Shown here: positions 33,932-45,245 of the stretch, piece by piece | How the letters are laid out: each line of letters begins with the position of its first letter | How positions within the stretch are numbered: the stretch's first letter is position 1 | Position numbers and translations under genes: made by a program | The notes under the pieces: generated by a model | Database searches by the model: none | Seen by the model: only the letters and a program-made list of their open reading frames with translations | Told to the model about the DNA's origin: nothing | Source of the DNA: Pseudomonadota bacterium | Lineage (GTDB): Bacteria; Pseudomonadota; Gammaproteobacteria; Burkholderiales; Ferrovaceae | Direction of reading: 5' to 3' | Length of the DNA: 64,000 bases | NCBI GenBank assembly: GCA_021796835.1 | Contig: JAKABO010000003.1 | Span: forward strand, 56,824 to 120,823

Positions 33932-35833
33932 TCAGTGCTGAGGAATCTCTCCCAGCACGCTCTTGTCCACCACCTGAATGGTGGCCTTCTGACGCAGGGC
34001 GGCCATGAACTCTTCCATGGCTTCATCCCCGTAGGCGCGCGTCAAGCCCGTTTCGGCTTCCTTCCGCGCGGCAGGTTCATCGGTACGTCCCGGCTGAATC
34101 TGGGTAACCCGCACCAGGATAAAATCGCCGTCCGGGGTGGATGCCCCCGCATAACCGGGCAGATGTCGTTCACCCACCCGAAAGGCAGGGGTCACCACGG
34201 CCGGAGGCAAACCACCGCCATAGGCCTGCTGACGGGTCAGGAGCCGCTCCCCGGACCAGGTCAGGCTGGAGTCTGCCTGGCCCGCCTGTAATTCCTTGAG
34301 TTTCTCTTCGCCTGCCCGACGGGCCAGAACCGCCGCCTGCTGCGCCTCGAGCCGTTGCTCGATGGCAGGAGTCGCCTGTTCCAGCGGTTTCAGAGTCGCC
34401 GCTTGATCCATGGTGACCCGGGCAGCCACCAGCAAACCGGGAGCCACCTCGATGGCGGGCGTATTGCGATGATCCTTGATCACCGCCGTAGAAAACAATG
34501 CCTGTTGCAACTTTGGATTGGACCAGATGCCCGTTTTCTGGTCTTTGCTGATCCCGCTGGCGGTCTGCAGCGTCAGATGAAATTTGTCGGCGGCAGGCTG
34601 CAAACTGCCGGATTGCTCATAAACCAGCGTGGTAAAAGCATCCGCCTCCTCGGAAAATTTCTGGCTGGCCTTCTGACGGCGAATCTCTGCGGTCAGTTGG
34701 GGCGTCACCTCCTCGAGACTCAAATGCTTCGCCTCATGGATATCCGTCACCTGAATCACGTGATACCCGAAGTCCGTTTCGATCGGGCCGGAGAATTCCC
34801 CTTTCTTCAGGGCAAACACAGCCTTTTCGAAGGGGGGGGTCATGGTTCCCCGGGCAAAGAATCCCAGATCCCCGCCCTGATTGGCCGAACCCGGGTCCTG
34901 GGACTCCGCCTTGGCAACCGCTGCAAACTGTTCGGGATGAGCCTGCAAACGGGTCAGCAACTGTTGGGCATGCTGTTTGATCGACTGTCGCTGGGCCGGA
35001 CTGGCGCCACTGGGAACGGTGAGCAGAATATGCCGTGCCCGGCGCATTTCCTGTCCGGTCCAGCGACTCTGGTTGGCGGGATCCGCGTACGCCTTGCGTA
35101 ATTCCTCGGGCAGAACCGTCACCCCCGCTGCCAGTTGATCCGCCGCCAGGGTCACATATTGAATGGAAATCTGTTCGGGAATGCGGAATTCGTCCGGGTG
35201 CGCCTGATAATATTTCCTGACCGCATCGTCGGCCAGCTTGACCTCGCCCAAAAACTGGCTCGAACTCAGGGTTGCAGTGGATACGGCGCGAATCTGTCCA
35301 TCCAGTTTGAGGAAGGCATCGAGGCTCTGCTCGGGCACCCACGCCGTGGTCGTCAGGGATTCCTGTTCCAGTTGCAGTTTCAGGTCGGCGCGCAAACGCT
35401 TTTCGAACTGGGCCGGGGTCATCCCCTGAGCGCGGAGCACCTGCTCATAACGGGATTGAGAAAACTTGCCGTTTTCCTGGAACACGTCCACCCGGGAAAT
35501 TTCGTCCACCAACAACTGATCCGGGATGGTCAGATGGTGATCGGCGGCGTATTCGAGCAATAACTGGCGGTTGACCAGCGCGTTCATGGCTTCATAACGC
35601 AAGGCCGGAGAATCCGCCCCGCCCGCGTTCTGCATCTGTTGTTGCTGGTTGCGCAGGGCGTCACGAAACTCTGACTGAGAAATGGCCACGCCATCCACTT
35701 TCAGCACCGTACCCCCCTCCCCGCCCTGGCGCAGATAATATTCCAGACCAAACAAGGCAAAAGGTACGGTGATCAGGGCAAGCACCACCTTGGCGACCCA
35801 GGTTTGAGACAACGAACGAAAACCATCCAGCAT
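33932..35833 (-). CDS. ppiD: PpiD/SurA-type peptidyl-prolyl isomerase, periplasmic chaperone
   Basis: [33 protein letters not shown]; parvulin domain [17 protein letters not shown]...[23 protein letters not shown]. Confidence 0.9.
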
Positions 35834-35849
35834 GAGAACCTCTCGAAAC

Positions 35850-35880
35850 AAAAAAACCGTTGATTTCTCAACGGCCTTTG
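35850..35880 (-). terminator. Intrinsic-terminator-like hairpin in the ppiD leader
   Basis: Minus strand CCGTTGAGAAATCAACGG then TTTTTTTG; ~18 nt before the ppiD ATG. Confidence 0.65.
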
Positions 35881-35886
35881 TTGTTT

Positions 35887-35960
35887 TGGCGGAGCGTGTG
35901 AGACGGAGCCCGCAATCCCCGACGTGACAGGCCGACACCAAAACTCATTGAATTCGGGCG
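35887..35960 (-). pseudogene. Decayed tRNA-Asp-like sequence
   Basis: GCCTGTCACG anticodon region, GGGATTGCGGGC, GCTCCGCCA 3' end align with tRNA-Asp(GTC) at 44777-44853; the 5' half is eroded. Confidence 0.6.
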
Positions 35961-35989
35961 ATTATAGCCGTTCCATCGCCCAAAGACAA
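35961..35989 (-). promoter_or_regulatory. sigma-70-type promoter reading into the decayed tRNA/ppiD leader
   Basis: TTGTCT (35989-35984) - 17 nt - TATAAT (35966-35961) on minus strand. Confidence 0.6.
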
Positions 35990-36030: not shown

Positions 36031-36609
36031 TCAGGGGGAAGGCGGCGGGGGTGGACCATTCGATTTTTGAGGGCTCCCCCCGGTCCACCATCCCGGCGGC
36101 GGTGGCGGAATATTCATCGAGGATCCCTTCGAACGCCCCAGTTGCGCTTCCAGCACGGCATTTTCGCGCTCCTGCGCGGTGAGTTGGTCCTGAAGCACCT
36201 GCTTTTCGGCCCGATCATGCTGCGCGGCCAGAATGCGGGCCTTGAGTTCACTTTCGTCCACGGTGACCCGCGCAGTCACGGACAATTGCTCATGTCCGTC
36301 TTTCAGCAACGAAAAGTGTTCGCCGGTTTCGACGATTTTGACCATGGATGCCGTAATGACCTTGGTTTCCTCCTGAAGATCGTCGTTCTTCAGGGTCGTC
36401 CGGGTTTCAATGTACGCACCCACCTCCCGCAGCGCCCGGGCACGAATCTCGTCCATGGCATTTTTCCGGGCCGTACTGCGACTGTCCGTCTCGCCCAGGT
36501 TGTACTGCACCGTATAACTGCGGGTCCAGGTTCCCGCTTCCGCAGAGAACGCGCACAGAAGGAGCGTGACTGCCGCACCCGTCGTCCGGAATTTCAGAGG
36601 GATCATCAA
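36031..36609 (-). CDS. secreted LPP20/FlgT-like protein with coiled-coil and Pro-rich C-terminus (function unknown)
   Basis: Signal peptide ...LLLCAFSAEA; STARKNAMDEIRARALREVGAYIETRTTLKND; tail PPPPPGWWTGGSPQKSNGPPPPPSP. Confidence 0.65.
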   Translation of the reverse strand: MMIPLKFRTTGAAVTLLLCAFSAEAGTWTRSYTVQYNLGETDSRSTARKNAMDEIRARALREVGAYIETRTTLKNDDLQEETKVITASMVKIVETGEHFSLLKDGHEQLSVTARVTVDESELKARILAAQHDRAEKQVLQDQLTAQERENAVLEAQLGRSKGSSMNIPPPPPGWWTGGSPQKSNGPPPPPSP

Positions 36610-36612
36610 AAT

Positions 36613-36963
36613 TCATTTCCCCAGCAGTACGCAGTACAGGCTCCCTTCCTGCCCTGTAATGGTTTTTTCTTCCAGTATCTCCACGGGAGGTACGCCCCCT
36701 TCCGCGACTTCGTTGACGATGCGGGTGTAGGTCTCGCCGTTGACCTGTTCACGCCCCCCCACCGACAGGCTCTTCGCCCGGGCCATGTTGCGCCGTGCAT
36801 CGATGATCGCACGCGTACGTGCGTCCGGATAGTGCAGCGAAGCGCAACCCGGGAAAGCCATGCGCCCGGAGAACATGACCCCGTTGGTTGCCGACTCCCA
36901 TCCGGCTTGCGCGCTCAGGGTAGATCCTCCGAGCAGCGCGACCAGCAGATTAGTTACCCGCAT
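36613..36963 (-). CDS. small secreted LPP20-like protein (function unknown)
   Basis: MRVTNLLVALLGGSTLSAQAGWESATNG...DARTRAIIDARRNMARAKSLSVGG; 116 aa. Confidence 0.6.
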   Translation of the reverse strand: MRVTNLLVALLGGSTLSAQAGWESATNGVMFSGRMAFPGCASLHYPDARTRAIIDARRNMARAKSLSVGGREQVNGETYTRIVNEVAEGGVPPVEILEEKTITGQEGSLYCVLLGK

Positions 36964-37756
36964 GATCGGGATTGGGAGGGGGTGGGGACATCGCATCCCC
37001 CGGACCGGGTCCCTCGCTCACGCTGGACGGGGCAGACCCGGCGGCAGGGGGGGCAGTGGATTCAATCACGGTCGTGGTCGTGAAGGGGGTTCCCGGCGGA
37101 AGCGTCTGTGCGGGTTGGGCGACCCGTTGTGCATTCTGTTTTTGCAATTTGTCCAACCGACCGGACAATTCGTCGAAGGCATGCTTGATATCTTCGCTCG
37201 ATGCGCTGGAGCCACGTTCCTGAAGGACGCGATTCACCTGATTGTAGGGCAATTTCAGCAGAACATAGGCCGTATACGACCCATCCACCGGACGGACATT
37301 CTGGTGAATCACCTCAAAGCCCACGATGGGCACCTGACTGACCAGACTGTCGATCATTTGCGTGTATTGCGACTGGCTATAGTTGCCACTCTTGTCCTGT
37401 GAATACTGTTGCTCCGAGCCCGAGAGAAGTTGATTGTAGTTTTTTGCCAATCCGTATTCGCCATCCAGCATGGCCTTCCGGATGGCCAGGCGGATCGTGT
37501 CGGACTCGCCGATCCCCACGGCATATACCCCGTCATCATCCGGGGGCGGGGCCTGTATCGCCCACTCCGGGATCTTGGAAATATTCGTTTCAAGACGCTT
37601 CTGTTCGGCCGCCCGCTGATCCGCGGCAGCCTGGGTATGGATTTTCACGGCAGCAGCCTCATCGGCCGCGGTTTCCTTCATGCTATTGCTGCTCGAACAA
37701 CCCGACAGGGCAACCAGGGCGCCGAGCACGCACAGGGCAATGACTTTCTTGTTCAT
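36950..37756 (-). CDS. LPP20-family lipoprotein
   Basis: Lipobox MNKKVIALCVLGALVALSGCSSS; IPEWAIQAPPPDDDGVYAVGIGESDTIRLAIRKAMLDGEYGLAKN. Confidence 0.75.
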   Translation of the reverse strand: MNKKVIALCVLGALVALSGCSSSNSMKETAADEAAAVKIHTQAAADQRAAEQKRLETNISKIPEWAIQAPPPDDDGVYAVGIGESDTIRLAIRKAMLDGEYGLAKNYNQLLSGSEQQYSQDKSGNYSQSQYTQMIDSLVSQVPIVGFEVIHQNVRPVDGSYTAYVLLKLPYNQVNRVLQERGSSASSEDIKHAFDELSGRLDKLQKQNAQRVAQPAQTLPPGTPFTTTTVIESTAPPAAGSAPSSVSEGPGPGDAMSPPPPNPDHAGN

Positions 37757-37888
37757 CACAGATCTCCCAAGAGTTTGTGCTTGCCCATTGTACACATGAA
37801 GCACGCCAACAAACCAGATACACAAGGTTACAGATGGACCTTTCCAGATCCGCCCCACGGACTGAACTTCTGCTATAGTACGACCATC

Positions 37889-38293: not shown

Positions 38294-38371
38294 ATCTTCC
38301 CTGCAAGTTCAGGTCGTGTCGCTTTGGGTTTGCGACGCGGATTTCTGTTGCTTGTCGGAGGCAAGATCATC

Positions 38372-39622
38372 ATGTCAACACTACGGATTACCCCTCGCTG
38401 GCCACTCGTGCTGGCGATTCTGCTGGCGACCTGGGCCCCGGTCAGCCAGGCACTGACCTATCAGGAGGCCCTGGATATCGCGGAATCCCGCGCTTCGGAA
38501 CTGAAGGCCCGCCAAAATACCGTCTCTGCCGCCCAGGCGGCACGCATCTCGGCAGGGGAATTGCCTGACCCGAAACTGGTGATGGGCGTGGATAACCTGC
38601 CGGTACAAGGCTCCGAGGCCTGGAGCACCACCCGTAATTTCATGACCATGCAGCGCGTTGGCGTCATGCAGGAAGTCACCAATGGCGATAAGCGCGAGGC
38701 CGCACAACGCCTGGCGGATACCAGGATCGCCCAGGCTGACGCCGAACTGGAGATCGAGCGTCTGTCTGTCAAACGGCAAACCCGACTGGCTTGGCTCAAG
38801 GTCTATTTTTTACAGCAGCAACGCGCTCTGCTGGATCAGATCGAGGCAGAAAATCATCTGCTCAGCACCGCCGTTACGGCGCGATTGGCCTCGGGACGGG
38901 GCAAAGGCGGCGATAGCCTGCAGTCCCGTCAGGAATTCATTGCGCTGGAGGACCGACGCGATGATCTGGAGCGGGACTTGACCAAGGCACGGGCCGAGTT
39001 GGCCCGCTGGGTGGGTGCGATCGCCACCGAACCCCTGACCGGCCCTCCCCCTGCGTATACGCCCAATCCGGAACATTTGCGGCACAACCTGAATCGTCAT
39101 CCCGATATCGCCATTTTCGGGATCCAGGAGGATTCGGGAAAGGCCGAGGTGAACCTGGCCGAAGCAGCCAAAAAACCCGACTGGGCGGTGGAACTGGATT
39201 ACGAACATCGTGCCCCTCTCTTTGGCGACATGATTTCGGTTCAATTCACCTTTGACCTGCCCATCTTTGCCAAGACCCGCCAGAATCCCCAGATCGCTGC
39301 CCGCGAGCAGGAACTCGAGCGCGTCAGTGCCGAACGCGAAAGCATGGTGCGTGATCATATTGCCGCTCTGGAAGCCCTGTTGGCAGAGCAGACCGCAGTG
39401 GTGCGTCAGATCGATCGCATCGACCAGGACTGGTTGCCGCTGGGACAACAGAAGGTCGATCTGACTCTGGCAGGGTACCGTGCAGGGCAGGAACCGCTGA
39501 CCTCGGTCCTCGACGCGCGCAAGTTTCTCATCGACACCCGCATGAAACGCATCGATTTGGCAGCACGGCGCGCTGCCATAGAAACCGAATTGAGTTACCT
39601 GTCCGAGGAAATCAAACCATGA
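38372..39622 (+). CDS. TolC/CusC-family outer membrane efflux protein
   Basis: LTYQEALDIAESRASELKARQNTV; periodic helical outer-membrane efflux repeats; ATGA coupling to the next gene. Confidence 0.88.
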   Translation: MSTLRITPRWPLVLAILLATWAPVSQALTYQEALDIAESRASELKARQNTVSAAQAARISAGELPDPKLVMGVDNLPVQGSEAWSTTRNFMTMQRVGVMQEVTNGDKREAAQRLADTRIAQADAELEIERLSVKRQTRLAWLKVYFLQQQRALLDQIEAENHLLSTAVTARLASGRGKGGDSLQSRQEFIALEDRRDDLERDLTKARAELARWVGAIATEPLTGPPPAYTPNPEHLRHNLNRHPDIAIFGIQEDSGKAEVNLAEAAKKPDWAVELDYEHRAPLFGDMISVQFTFDLPIFAKTRQNPQIAAREQELERVSAERESMVRDHIAALEALLAEQTAVVRQIDRIDQDWLPLGQQKVDLTLAGYRAGQEPLTSVLDARKFLIDTRMKRIDLAARRAAIETELSYLSEEIKP

Positions 39623-40857
39623 ATCCAAAACAGATGGTCCTGATGGGCGCTGCCGTTGTGGCTCTGGTCGCCGTGGGCGCTGGTGCGGGCTACCGGTTTG
39701 CCATGACCCGACCCGTGGTCATGGCCAATAAAACGCCCGTCGCGGAGGCTCCCGGACAGTCTGTCCTGTATTGGTACGACCCCATGAAGCCGGACCAACA
39801 TTTCGACAAACCCGGCAAATCCCCCTTCATGGATATGGAACTGGTCCCCATGTATGGCGGGGGTAACCCGGTGGACAGTGGCGTATCCATCGACTCCCGG
39901 CTGACGCAGAACACGGGGGTGAGGCTGGCCACTGTGGAGAAGGGTCAACTGGGGCGCGGACTGGAAGTCGTCGGGACCCTCGCCTTCAATGATCGTCTGG
40001 TGACGGTGATACAGGCACGCACGGGCGGATTGGTGGAGCGGGTATATGCCCGCGCCCCCAACGACGTGATCCCGGCCGGTGCGCCCCTCGCCGATCTGCG
40101 TGTGCCAGAGTGGTACGGCGCCCAGATGGAATACCTGTCCCTGCGCCAGGCCGGTGACCCCGGACTGGCGGGCGCGGCGCGCACGCGACTGCTGCAACTG
40201 GGCATGAGTGAGTCCCTGGTGGCTCAAATAGAAAAGTCCGGAGAACCGCGAGCCGTGGTGACCATAGCGGCACCGCAGGGCGGGGTATTGCTGGAACTCG
40301 ATCTCCGGGCAGGCATGACCATCCTGCCCGGCCAGACCTTGGCACGCATCAACGGCTTGAACAGTGTGTGGCTGGATGCCGAGGTTCCGCAGGCACAAGC
40401 GGCAGGTCTGGCGGTGGGCCAACCGGTATCGGCCACTTTCACGCCCTGGCCGGGGCGCGTGTTCGCGGGCCGGATCCGTGCCTTGCTGCCAGCGCTGGAA
40501 CAGGATGCCCGCACCTTGCAAGTCCGGACGGAATGGTCCAACCCGGAGGGCAGGTTACGCCCGGGAATGTATGCCCAGGTCCATTTACAGAAAGCCCTGG
40601 GCCCCGACCGGGTGCTGGTTCCTTCTGAAGCCGTCATCGCCACAGGCAAACGGAATGTGGTCATCGTGGCCGGAGACGGGGGGCATTTTCGTCCGGCCGA
40701 AGTGACGGTGGGCCACGAAGATGGGGGCAAAACGGAGATTCTCGCGGGTCTTCAGCCCGGCGAGAAAATCGTGGTCTCGGGCCAGTTCCTGATCGACTCC
40801 GAGGCCAGCCTCAAAGGTGTGCTGGCCCGCATGGAGAAGTCGGGAGAACAGAAATGA
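39619..40857 (+). CDS. cusB: Cus-type RND efflux periplasmic adaptor
   Basis: [30 protein letters not shown] metal-binding motif; membrane-fusion domain. Confidence 0.9.
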
Positions 40858-43800
40858 TCGCCCACCTCATCCGCTGGTCCGTACGCAACCGGTTTCTGGT
40901 CTTGCTGGCCACGCTGGCTCTGACCGCCTGGGGCGTGTGGTCGATACGCACGACTGCTGTGGATGCGCTGCCGGACCTCTCCGATGTCCAGGTCATCATT
41001 CGTACCTCGTGGCCGGGCCAGGCCCCCCAGATCGTCGAGGATCAGATCACTTATCCGCTGGCCGCCACCATGCTTTCGGTACCGGGCGCCAAAACGGTGC
41101 GCGGTTATTCGTTTTTTGGAGACTCCTTCGTCTATGTGCTGTTCGAGGAGGGAACGGATCTTTATTGGGCACGCTCCCGGGTCCTGGAATATCTCAATCA
41201 GATGCAGGGGAAATTGCCCACCGGAGCGCGCACCGCGCTCGGACCGGACGCCACGGGGGTGGGCTGGATTTTCGAGTATGCGCTGGTGGATCGGACGGGC
41301 CGACACGATCTGGCCGAACTGCGCAGTTTGCAGGACTGGTTTCTCAAGTACGAATTGAAAAGTGTTCCGGATGTGGCCGAAGTGGCTTCGGTGGGGGGCA
41401 TGGTGCGCGAGTACCAGATCGTGCCGGACCCCGTGCAGTTGGCTGCCTACCATATCACCTCGGACCAGTTGATCGCGGCACTGCGCAACGGCAATCAGGA
41501 GGCTGGCGGGGGCGTGGTGGAACAGGGTGAAGCGGAGTACATGGTGCGCGCCACCGGCTATTTAAAAACCCTGGAGGACTTTCGCCACATTCCGGTGGCC
41601 CTGCCCAAGTCCGGCATCCCGGTGTATCTGGGTGATGTGGCGCGGGTTCGACTGGGTCCGGAAATGCGCCGTGGGATCGCCGAACTCGATGGCCAGGGTG
41701 AAGTGGCAGGGGGCGTGATCATCCTGCGTTCCGGCAAGAATGCGCGAGAAACCATTGCCGCCGTCAAAACCAGACTTGCCGTCCTCGAAAAAAGTTTGCC
41801 CCCGGGGGTAGAAGTCGTCATCACCTACGACCGCAGTCAACTCATCGATCGTGCCGTGAAAAATCTCGACCATAAATTGATCGAGGAATTTGTCGTGGTG
41901 GCGGCAGTCTGCGGACTATTCCTGTGGCATCTGAGATCCGCGTTGGTAGCCATCATCTCGCTTCCCCTGGGCGTACTCACCGCCTTCATCCTGATGCGCT
42001 ATCAGGGGATCAACGCCAACATCATGTCCCTGGGCGGAATTGCCATTGCGGTGGGCGCCATGGTGGATGCGGCGGTGGTCATGATCGAAAACGCTCATAA
42101 AAAGATCGAATCCTGGCGACGGCAACACCCAGGGTGCACGCTGGAAGGGCCGGAACACTGGCAGGTGGTGACCGACGCCGCCGTGGAGGTTGGCCCTGCC
42201 CTGTTTTTCAGCCTGATCATCATCACTCTCTCCTTCCTTCCCGTATTCACCCTGGAGGCTCAGGAAGGTCGAATGTTTGCCCCCCTGGCTTTCACCAAAA
42301 GTTATGCCATGGCAGGCGCAGCCGCCCTGGCCGTGACCCTGATTCCCATCCTGATGGGTTATCTGATCCGTGGTCACATTCCGGATGAAGCGCGCAATCC
42401 GCTCAATCGCTGGCTGATCGCGGCTTATCATCCCTTGCTGGACAGGGTGCTGCGCCGCCCCGGAACCACTTTGCTGATCGCGTTGGGGTTTCTGGCGACC
42501 ACGCTGTGGCCGATTTCACAGCTGGGAGGTGAATTCATGCCGCCACTGGATGAGGGAGACCTGCTCTACATGCCTTCCGCCTTGCCCGGATTATCGGCAG
42601 CCAAGGCTGCCGAACTGCTCCAGCAGACGGATCGCCTGATCAAGACCGTACCGGAAGTCGCTCATGTATTTGGCAAGGCGGGGCGCGCTGAAACGGCCAC
42701 CGACCCGGCGCCAATGGAGATGTTCGAAACCACGATCCAGTTCAAACCCCATGACCAATGGCGCCCGGGATTGACCCCGGAATCGCTGGTGGCCGAGTTG
42801 GACAAGGTCGTCCGGGTGCCGGGGCTCTCCAATGTCTGGATCCCCCCCATTCGCAATCGCATCGACATGCTCGCCACCGGGATCAAAAGCCCTATCGGGG
42901 TAAAGGTTTCCGGTCCCGACATCGCCACCATCGAAACCGTTGCGCTGGCCGTGGAACGAGTGGCCAAATCGGTGCGCGGGGTTTCCTCCGCGTTTGCGGA
43001 AAGGCTTTCGGGCGGCCTTTACATCACGATCGATATCGACCGGGAAAAAGCGGCACGCTATGGCCTCAACATCCGCGATGTCCAATCCGTGGTCACCCAC
43101 CTGATCGGCGGCGAAGCCGTGGGAGAAACCGTCGAGGGAACCGCACGGTACCCCATCAACGTACGTTATCCCCGCTCCGACCGAAATACTCTGGAAGCCC
43201 TGCGTCAACTACCCTTTGTCACTGCCGGTGGACAGTGGATCACGCTCGGGACCGTGGCCCGGTTACATTACAACGAAGGCCCCCCCATGCTGAGAAGCGA
43301 GAATGCACGCCTGGCCAGTTGGGTCTATGTGGATGTGCGTGACCGCGATCTGGCCTCCACCGTGGAGGACCTGCGCCGGGCCATCGCTCAGGAAGTTCCT
43401 TTGCCCGCCGGCGTCAGCGTGGCCTATTCGGGTCAATTCGAATTTCTCGAGCGCGCCAATGAACGCCTCAAAGTGGTGGTCCCCGCCACGCTGCTCATCA
43501 TTTTTGTGCTGCTCTATCTGACCTTTCAACGCGTGGATGAAGCACTGTTGATCATGGGTACGTTGCCCTTCGCGCTGACCGGCGGAGTCTGGTTGTTGTA
43601 CCTGCTGCATTACAACCTTTCCGTCGCCACCGCGGTGGGATTCATCGCGCTGGCCGGGGTATCGGCGGAGTTTGGCGTCATCATGCTGATCTATCTCCGA
43701 CAGGCACTGGAAGCGCGCCTGGCAACCGGGGCTCCCCTGACCCGTACGGTTCTCGAGGACGCCATCCGGGCAGGCGCCGTCCTCCGGGTTCGTCCCAAGG

Positions 43801-43988
43801 CCATGACCGTGGCAGTCATCCTGGCGGGGCTCTTGCCCATCCTGTGTGGGAGCGGGACGGGTTCCGAAATCATGAGTCGCATCGCGGCCCCCATGGTCGG
43901 AGGCATGCTCACCGCCCCCTTGCTGTCCATGTTCATCATCCCGGCCGCCTACCGGCTGATGCGGTTGCGAAGAAATGGTTCCAAATAA
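40854..43988 (+). CDS. cusA: Cus-type heavy-metal RND pump
   Basis: 1044 aa; [79 protein letters not shown]. Confidence 0.93.
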
Positions 43989-44048
43989 GCAGCGGTGCGG
44001 CCGGGCTGCTTTGATTATCGGCCGCTTTTGAAAAAGGAGAAATAAACG

Positions 44049-44405
44049 ATGTCTCAATTGAACTCTCTGCTGGTCGCCCTTGGGCTTTCACTGGTGTTCC
44101 CGGCTCTGGCCGACGGTATGAACGAGATGCCTCCCATGCAAGGAAGTGCAATGGGAAACGGCGCTGAGATGACCTCAAAAATGGCACATGGAATTGGCAC
44201 GGTGAAGGGCGTAGATACCAAAAAAGGCACGATCACTCTTGCTCACCAACCCATAAAGGAATTGAATTGGCCTGCCATGACCATGACCTTCAAGGTCGCA
44301 AAATCAGAGTTGCTTAATGGCGTTACCGTTGGACAGCATGTGAATTTTACATTACAAGGAAACGATATGAACCCTGTAGTTACAGCGATCAGCATCACCA
44401 AATAG
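44049..44405 (+). CDS. cusF: CusF-type periplasmic Cu(I)/Ag(I) chaperone
   Basis: GTVKGVDTKKGTITLAHQPIKELNWPAMTMTFKV: His and W-x2-M-x-M ligand pattern. Confidence 0.88.
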   Translation: MSQLNSLLVALGLSLVFPALADGMNEMPPMQGSAMGNGAEMTSKMAHGIGTVKGVDTKKGTITLAHQPIKELNWPAMTMTFKVAKSELLNGVTVGQHVNFTLQGNDMNPVVTAISITK

Positions 44406-44735: not shown

Positions 44736-44770
44736 AAAAAAAAACCGCTGATTTCTCAGCGGTTTTTTTT
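44736..44770 (-). terminator. Terminator of the hupB-tRNA-Val-tRNA-Asp unit (symmetric, possibly bidirectional)
   Basis: CCGCTGATTTCTCAGCGG flanked by poly-A and poly-T. Confidence 0.8.
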
Positions 44771-44776
44771 GTTGCT

Positions 44777-44853
44777 TGGCGGAGTGGACGGGACTCGAAC
44801 CCGCGACCCCCGGCGTGACAGGCCGGTATTCTAACCAACTGAACTACCACTCC
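44777..44853 (-). tRNA. tRNA-Asp(GTC)
   Basis: GGAGTGGTAGTTCAGTTGGTTAGAATACCGGCCTGTCACGCCGGGGGTCGCGGGTTCGAGTCCCGTCCACTCCGCCA; encoded CCA. Confidence 0.97.
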
Positions 44854-44888: not shown

Positions 44889-44964
44889 TGGTGGGTGCTG
44901 AGGGGCTCGAACCCCCGACATTCGCCTTGTAAGGGCGACGCTCTACCAACTGAGCTAAGCACCC
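44889..44964 (-). tRNA. tRNA-Val(TAC)
   Basis: GGGTGCTTAGCTCAGTTGGTAGAGCGTCGCCCTTACAAGGCGAATGTCGGGGGTTCGAGCCCCTCAGCACCCACCA. Confidence 0.97.
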
Positions 44965-44972
44965 AAAGACCG

Positions 44973-45245
44973 CTAGTTTACACTATCCTTGAGAACTTTG
45001 CCAGCCCTGAATTTTGGAACTTTTGCCGCTTCGATCTGGATGGTCTCCCCTGTACTGGGGTTACGTCCGGTACGCGCTGCCCGTTTCCCCACGTGAAACG
45101 TCCCAAACCCGACCAGAGAAACCTGTCCGCCCTTCTTGAGCGTCGACTGAATGGCGCTGATCGCTCCCTCCAGAGCCCGTCCCGCAGCCGCTTTAGAAAT
45201 ATCTGCCGCCTCAGCCATCTGTTCGATCAGTTCACTTTTGTTCAC
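44973..45245 (-). CDS. hupB: DNA-binding protein HU
   Basis: [32 protein letters not shown]...[26 protein letters not shown]. Confidence 0.96.

Follow-up and report, generated by a model that had tools for sequence, protein, structure and literature searches.

The leader of the ppiD gene in Ferrovum (Ferrovaceae) is probably the scar of an old island in a tRNA-Asp gene, in which a newer promoter and read-through of a terminator would feed ppiD. The odd architecture would then come from an ordinary event and be an instance of known phenomena. The stretch of 64,000 nucleotides analysed here (hereafter the window) belongs to a Ferrovum genome (G000), and the leader was compared in six Ferrovum genomes, five of them insert-bearing (G000, G001, G003, G005 and G006) and one more distant (G002). 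On the minus strand a promoter-like sequence is followed by the 3' half of a tRNA-Asp, a terminator hairpin, the sequence GAGAGG and the ppiD ATG (Table 1). All the elements of the original prediction, namely promoter, tRNA-Asp remnant, terminator and start codon, were found at the places it had given them.

Table 1. Features of the ppiD leader and of the surrounding locus (positions in the window)
Feature	Position	Strand	Basis and remarks
ppiD, 633 aa, SurA_N_3 and rotamase domains	33932..35833	-	Pfam
ppiD ribosome-binding site GAGAGG	35839..35844	-	Sequence; identical in five genomes
Intrinsic terminator inherited from the tRNA-Val/tRNA-Asp operon	35850..35874	-	Hairpin identity across genomes
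Displaced tRNA-Asp 3' half (anticodon stem to CCA), degenerate, putative island attachment scar	35887..35934	-	Consensus match, BLAST
Start of the predicted leader RNA (~20 nt), of non-tRNA origin	35935..35954	-	Holds GUUUUGG, able to pair with CCAAAAC at the tRNA trailer
Putative sigma-70-type promoter TTGTCT-N17-TATAAT, GC-rich discriminator	35961..35989	-	Sequence, scan, conservation; predicted start near 35954
Accessory trio, exported or lipoprotein genes, weak LPP20 match	36031..37762	-	Pfam and relatives; directly upstream of ppiD, same strand
Copper efflux cluster cusC-cusB-cusA-cusF	38324..44405	+	Pfam OEP, HlyD_D23, ACR_tran, CusF_Ec; variable island cargo
Intact tRNA-Asp(GTC), putative regenerated target gene	44777..44853	-	ARAGORN and Rfam
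Intact tRNA-Val(TAC)	44889..44964	-	hupB (44973-45245) and lon precede

The tRNA-derived part of the leader was compared with the intact tRNA-Asp of the window. In whole-genome BLAST the leader matched this gene with an E value of 4.9e-14 (tRNA part plus terminator), and the reverse search, with the intact tRNA-Asp against the genome, recovered the remnant with an E value of 5e-9. The same kind of search found the remnant in both G000 and G001, each match starting at the anticodon stem. When the five-genome consensus was set ungapped against tRNA-Asp, 39 of 49 positions matched from the anticodon stem to CCA, against 10 of 28 in the 5' half, which is at chance level (p 0.20), and the best change point in identity fell after tRNA position 28 (permutation p 0.004). 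The decayed tRNA-Asp proposed earlier is therefore a significant match, of the 3' half alone (35934-35887). This distribution bears on another possible origin of the leader, a tandem duplication of the complete tRNA-Asp gene with its promoter, followed by decay and by separation through unrelated insertions. Such a duplication would account for a promoter with a GC-rich discriminator placed as a tRNA promoter would be, for a short TTCA..GTT match in register with the D arm and for the twofold terminator of G000. Nevertheless, it is unlikely, because identity is at chance in the 5' half but reaches 80% in the 3' half, changing at the anticodon stem, and because the terminator that follows the intact tRNA in sister species is a different one.

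The recognised mark of an island in a tRNA gene is an intact copy of the gene at one end and a displaced 3' piece of it at the other, and crossover at the anticodon defines one class of such sites (Islander, PMC4383910). The intact tRNA-Val and tRNA-Asp of the window (44964-44777) adjoin hupB and lon and lie ~8.8 kb from the remnant. The 3' fragment (35934-35887) is downstream of the intact tDNA (44777-44853) in the same orientation, runs to CCA and begins at a known crossover site (after position 28), and the uninterrupted site is present in close relatives: tRNA-Asp, terminator and ppiD follow one another directly in two Ferrovum genomes, G004 and G007. The ancestral row is lon-hupB-tRNA-Val-tRNA-Asp-terminator-ppiD without a gap (the G007 contig begins at tRNA-Val, and lon and hupB are not seen there), and the uninterrupted order was also observed outside the genus, in other Ferrovaceae genera (G010, G013, G014, G019, G023 and G024). 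The intact tRNA-Asp and ppiD are several kb apart in the five insert-bearing genomes, with accessory genes of differing content between them. The exported-protein trio beside ppiD is present in all five and the cus copper-efflux cluster in four, other genes being found in G003, whose PpiD is 91–93% identical. Among the genomes searched, the ppiD-proximal protein of the trio (36031-36609) was found in the five island-bearing Ferrovum only, as were close orthologues of 36950-37762. The scar-type leader is also present in G002, where the upstream genes are different and the tRNA-Asp locus itself is absent from the assembly.

No match to the tyrosine integrase family (PF00589) was listed on the site contigs of the five insert-bearing genomes, and integrases are present on other contigs in G005 and others. 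Since the site lacks an integrase, it is filed as a scar or remnant rather than as an intact island, and the event would be old or the element decayed. The insert does not differ from its surroundings in base composition (GC 0.54–0.65 throughout), which speaks neither for nor against a foreign origin. As judged from the comparison on which the displacement rests, an island would have entered the tRNA-Asp gene of the conserved row, and recombination near the anticodon, by an inferred recombinase, would have regenerated tRNA-Asp at one end, while the displaced 3' half stayed with the operon terminator before ppiD at the other. The site resembles Islander islands (PMC4383910) in its intact tRNA, same-strand 3' fragment, variable accessory cargo and anticodon boundary. 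It differs from them in having no integrase and a degenerate fragment, in the operon terminator carried by the displaced piece and in the position of the tRNA fragment, which ends ~54 nt from the ppiD start codon.

Regarding the cargo, CusB and CusC are only 56–61% identical to their counterparts at this position in G001, G005 and G006, as compared with 91% for PpiD and 97% for Lon, which suggests that the cus genes were acquired separately or replaced at a hotspot. Between tRNA-Asp and ppiD at loci L043 and L045, reading of the translations suggested a creatininase-like and a beta-propeller-like gene in G003 and an AbrB/PIN-type pair in G006.

The terminator hairpin consists of the stem CCGTTGA (35874-35868), the loop GAAA and TCAACGG (35863-35857), followed by T7 (35856-35850), and the ATG at 35833 sits 16 nt past the T run. 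Pattern scans of a 5-kb stretch found four terminators (4.8 expected) and one promoter (1.5 expected), neither of them above chance. Because the bare patterns are at chance level, comparison among relatives was needed, and it is their conservation in the six Ferrovum genomes that makes both elements more than chance matches. Four-fold degenerate sites of ppiD, with an identity of 0.75 among the five genomes and 0.32 against G002, served as neutral reference. The identity of the terminator was 0.98 in both comparisons, the sole difference being T6 or T7, and the hairpin is identical in the six genomes with a scar-type leader even where sites are saturated. In G004 this hairpin follows the intact tRNA-Asp and lies immediately ahead of ppiD; G007 has it there too, with a single change in the loop. 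To judge from these identities, the terminator of the ppiD leader is the ancestral one of the tRNA-Val/tRNA-Asp operon. The intact tRNA-Asp of the insert-bearing species has its own terminator, which relieves the old one of any task for the tRNA. On this comparative evidence selection nevertheless maintains the old terminator, even though tRNA transcripts now end elsewhere. The hairpin of the original prediction thus gains support as a selected element.

In the window, CCGCTGAGAAATCAGCGG-T9 at 44740-44776, behind the intact tRNA-Asp, is nearly a duplicate of the ppiD terminator, and an unrelated terminator is found behind the intact tRNA-Asp of G001, G003, G005 and G006. The copy suggests a later exchange at the site in this species. 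The terminator was also considered as a repeated genomic element and rejected as such, the whole genome holding only two sites with this sequence, both at this locus.

The promoter comprises the -35 hexamer TTGTCT (35989-35984), a 17-nt spacer and the -10 hexamer TATAAT (35966-35961). Pairwise identity of the hexamers was 0.97 among the five Ferrovum genomes and 0.82 against G002, as compared with 0.53 and 0.34 for the flank upstream of the promoter, and the following leader block (35954-35931) gave 0.94 and 0.60. In G002 the promoter is kept despite a divergent upstream gene. This putative promoter, proposed earlier from the window alone, is therefore more conserved than neutral sites, and would be active on that evidence. 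A search for another tRNA promoter of the genome from which it might have been copied gave, with a strict pattern, no second mismatch-free combination of -35, -10 and discriminator.

Between the terminator and the ATG, no -10 motif of the form TANNNT was present in the six genomes or in G004 and G007, in agreement with the earlier claim that no promoter fits there. As a consequence, transcription of ppiD should begin before the terminator and continue through it. The leader thus has the layout of an attenuator, with a conserved promoter, leader and terminator and no promoter between terminator and gene. Most likely, ppiD mRNA begins at a promoter acquired at the edge of the island and is completed by read-through of the inherited terminator; the comparison supports the read-through that had been predicted, as a deduction from the layout. 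The TTGTCT-N17-TATAAT promoter, brought along with the island or arisen at its edge, would have replaced the lost supply from the tRNA operon. Most transcripts would end at the terminator after ~100 nt, and the share that reads through would be the ppiD mRNA. Today the terminator is likely to hold down ppiD expression or to stop transcripts arriving from upstream. No terminator was found for the accessory trio, which is encoded on the ppiD strand; hence part of the ppiD mRNA may come from the trio.

The position of the trio could also mean that the terminator only ends upstream transcripts (those of the trio and formerly of the tRNAs) and that ppiD has a non-sigma-70 promoter within the hairpin, of a kind that the scans, covering sigma-70-like sites only, would have missed. 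We consider this distinctly improbable, since G002 retains the terminator despite its divergent upstream gene and the T run ends only ~16 nt before the ATG. Translation-coupled attenuation, in which the ribosome on a near-leaderless small ORF starting at ATG 35948 would control the hairpin, is extremely improbable. The ATG and first codons of this ORF are conserved and its stop falls inside the stem in G000 and G002, but it is without a ribosome-binding site and its frame and stop vary among the six genomes (26, 58 and 95 codons). A leader peptide from this ATG was rejected because the frame is not conserved.

The leader RNA itself was compared among genomes. The original prediction had suggested an exapted tRNA, with a tRNA-like leader RNA that would serve as sRNA or as sensing attenuator for ppiD. 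In favour of this are the conservation of promoter and terminator, an identity of 94% in five genomes over the first 24 nt of the leader, an anticodon hairpin that most genomes retain through G-U changes and a possible GUUUUGG/CCAAAAC helix closing the leader. However, the tRNA-derived block has an identity of 0.82 among the five genomes, near the neutral 0.75 (0.45 against G002), and in all five the acceptor stem is gone and the T stem broken. Neither ARAGORN nor Rfam detected a tRNA gene at the remnant, whose cloverleaf stems are not retained. The leader alignment contains no compensatory pair changes, and folding z-scores against shuffled sequence were only -0.04 to -1.3. RNAalifold gave a different, weakly supported fold for the six leaders, with a covariation term of -0.24. 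The closing helix is conserved in sequence without covariation, G002 retaining part of it only, and no alternative antiterminator fold had covariation support. As far as the comparison can tell, the tRNA fragment drifts near-neutrally and a tRNA-like RNA is not supported, which makes the exapted leader very improbable. A short terminated leader RNA of ~100 nt is plausible; a function for it is not supported by any evidence here.

Read-through of terminators is well documented in E. coli. SMRT-Cappable-seq revealed at least 5% read-through at 75% of termination sites (PMC6131387), and the glyV-X-Y terminator is an attenuator with read-through into datA (PMC10950094). Read-through being common, and functional for a tRNA operon, its occurrence before ppiD is plausible. 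The Ferrovum leader would share with the partial read-through of E. coli (PMC6131387) the expression of a downstream gene by incomplete termination, but its terminator sits in the leader, beside the ribosome-binding site of the gene. With glyV-X-Y/datA (PMC10950094) it would have in common a tRNA-operon terminator and a downstream function through read-through. For datA the read-through has been measured and its target is a DNA site, whereas in Ferrovum read-through is inferred and the tRNA is disconnected.

The arrangement of tRNA, terminator and ppiD extends across the clade and offers a lead in itself. Among 78 named loci, mostly from Burkholderiales, ppiD is closely preceded by a co-oriented tRNA-Asp or tRNA-Val in 75, and 68 of these 75 have a terminator between tRNA and ppiD. 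The end of the terminator lies at most 35 nt from the ppiD ATG in 22 of the 75 and at most 50 nt in 36, although individual distances may be off because start codons were assigned by rule. The betaproteobacterial order is hupB-tRNA-Val(-tRNA-Asp), operon terminator and then ppiD. Judged by this gene order, the terminator before ppiD is the inherited end of the tRNA-Val/tRNA-Asp operon and not a Ferrovum invention. An extended -10 sequence, TGnTARACT, occurs ~38 nt before the ppiD ATG in the sister genera G008, G013, G014, G019 and G023 (loci L048, L050, L051, L053 and L054) and is missing in Ferrovum; owing to this motif, ppiD appears to have its own promoter in those genera. It is possible, if rather doubtful, that expression of ppiD in Betaproteobacteria passes through a leaky tRNA-operon terminator which is regulated and retained for this purpose and would tie PpiD to tRNA transcription; Ferrovum, whose island severed the tRNA while promoter and terminator stayed, would then be a natural experiment in which the terminator serves ppiD itself. 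A search of the literature for ppiD, tRNA-Asp and hupB together gave no hit. With a terminator freed from its tRNA and still preserved before ppiD, supply by tRNA-operon read-through becomes testable in Betaproteobacteria with existing RNA-seq and Term-seq.

Finally, across the Burkholderiales loci L055-L134 the stem GGCGAAC/GTTCGCC is conserved between tRNA-Val/tRNA-Asp and ppiD, often 15–50 nt before the ATG, and shows paired changes, e.g. GGTGAAC/GTTCACC.
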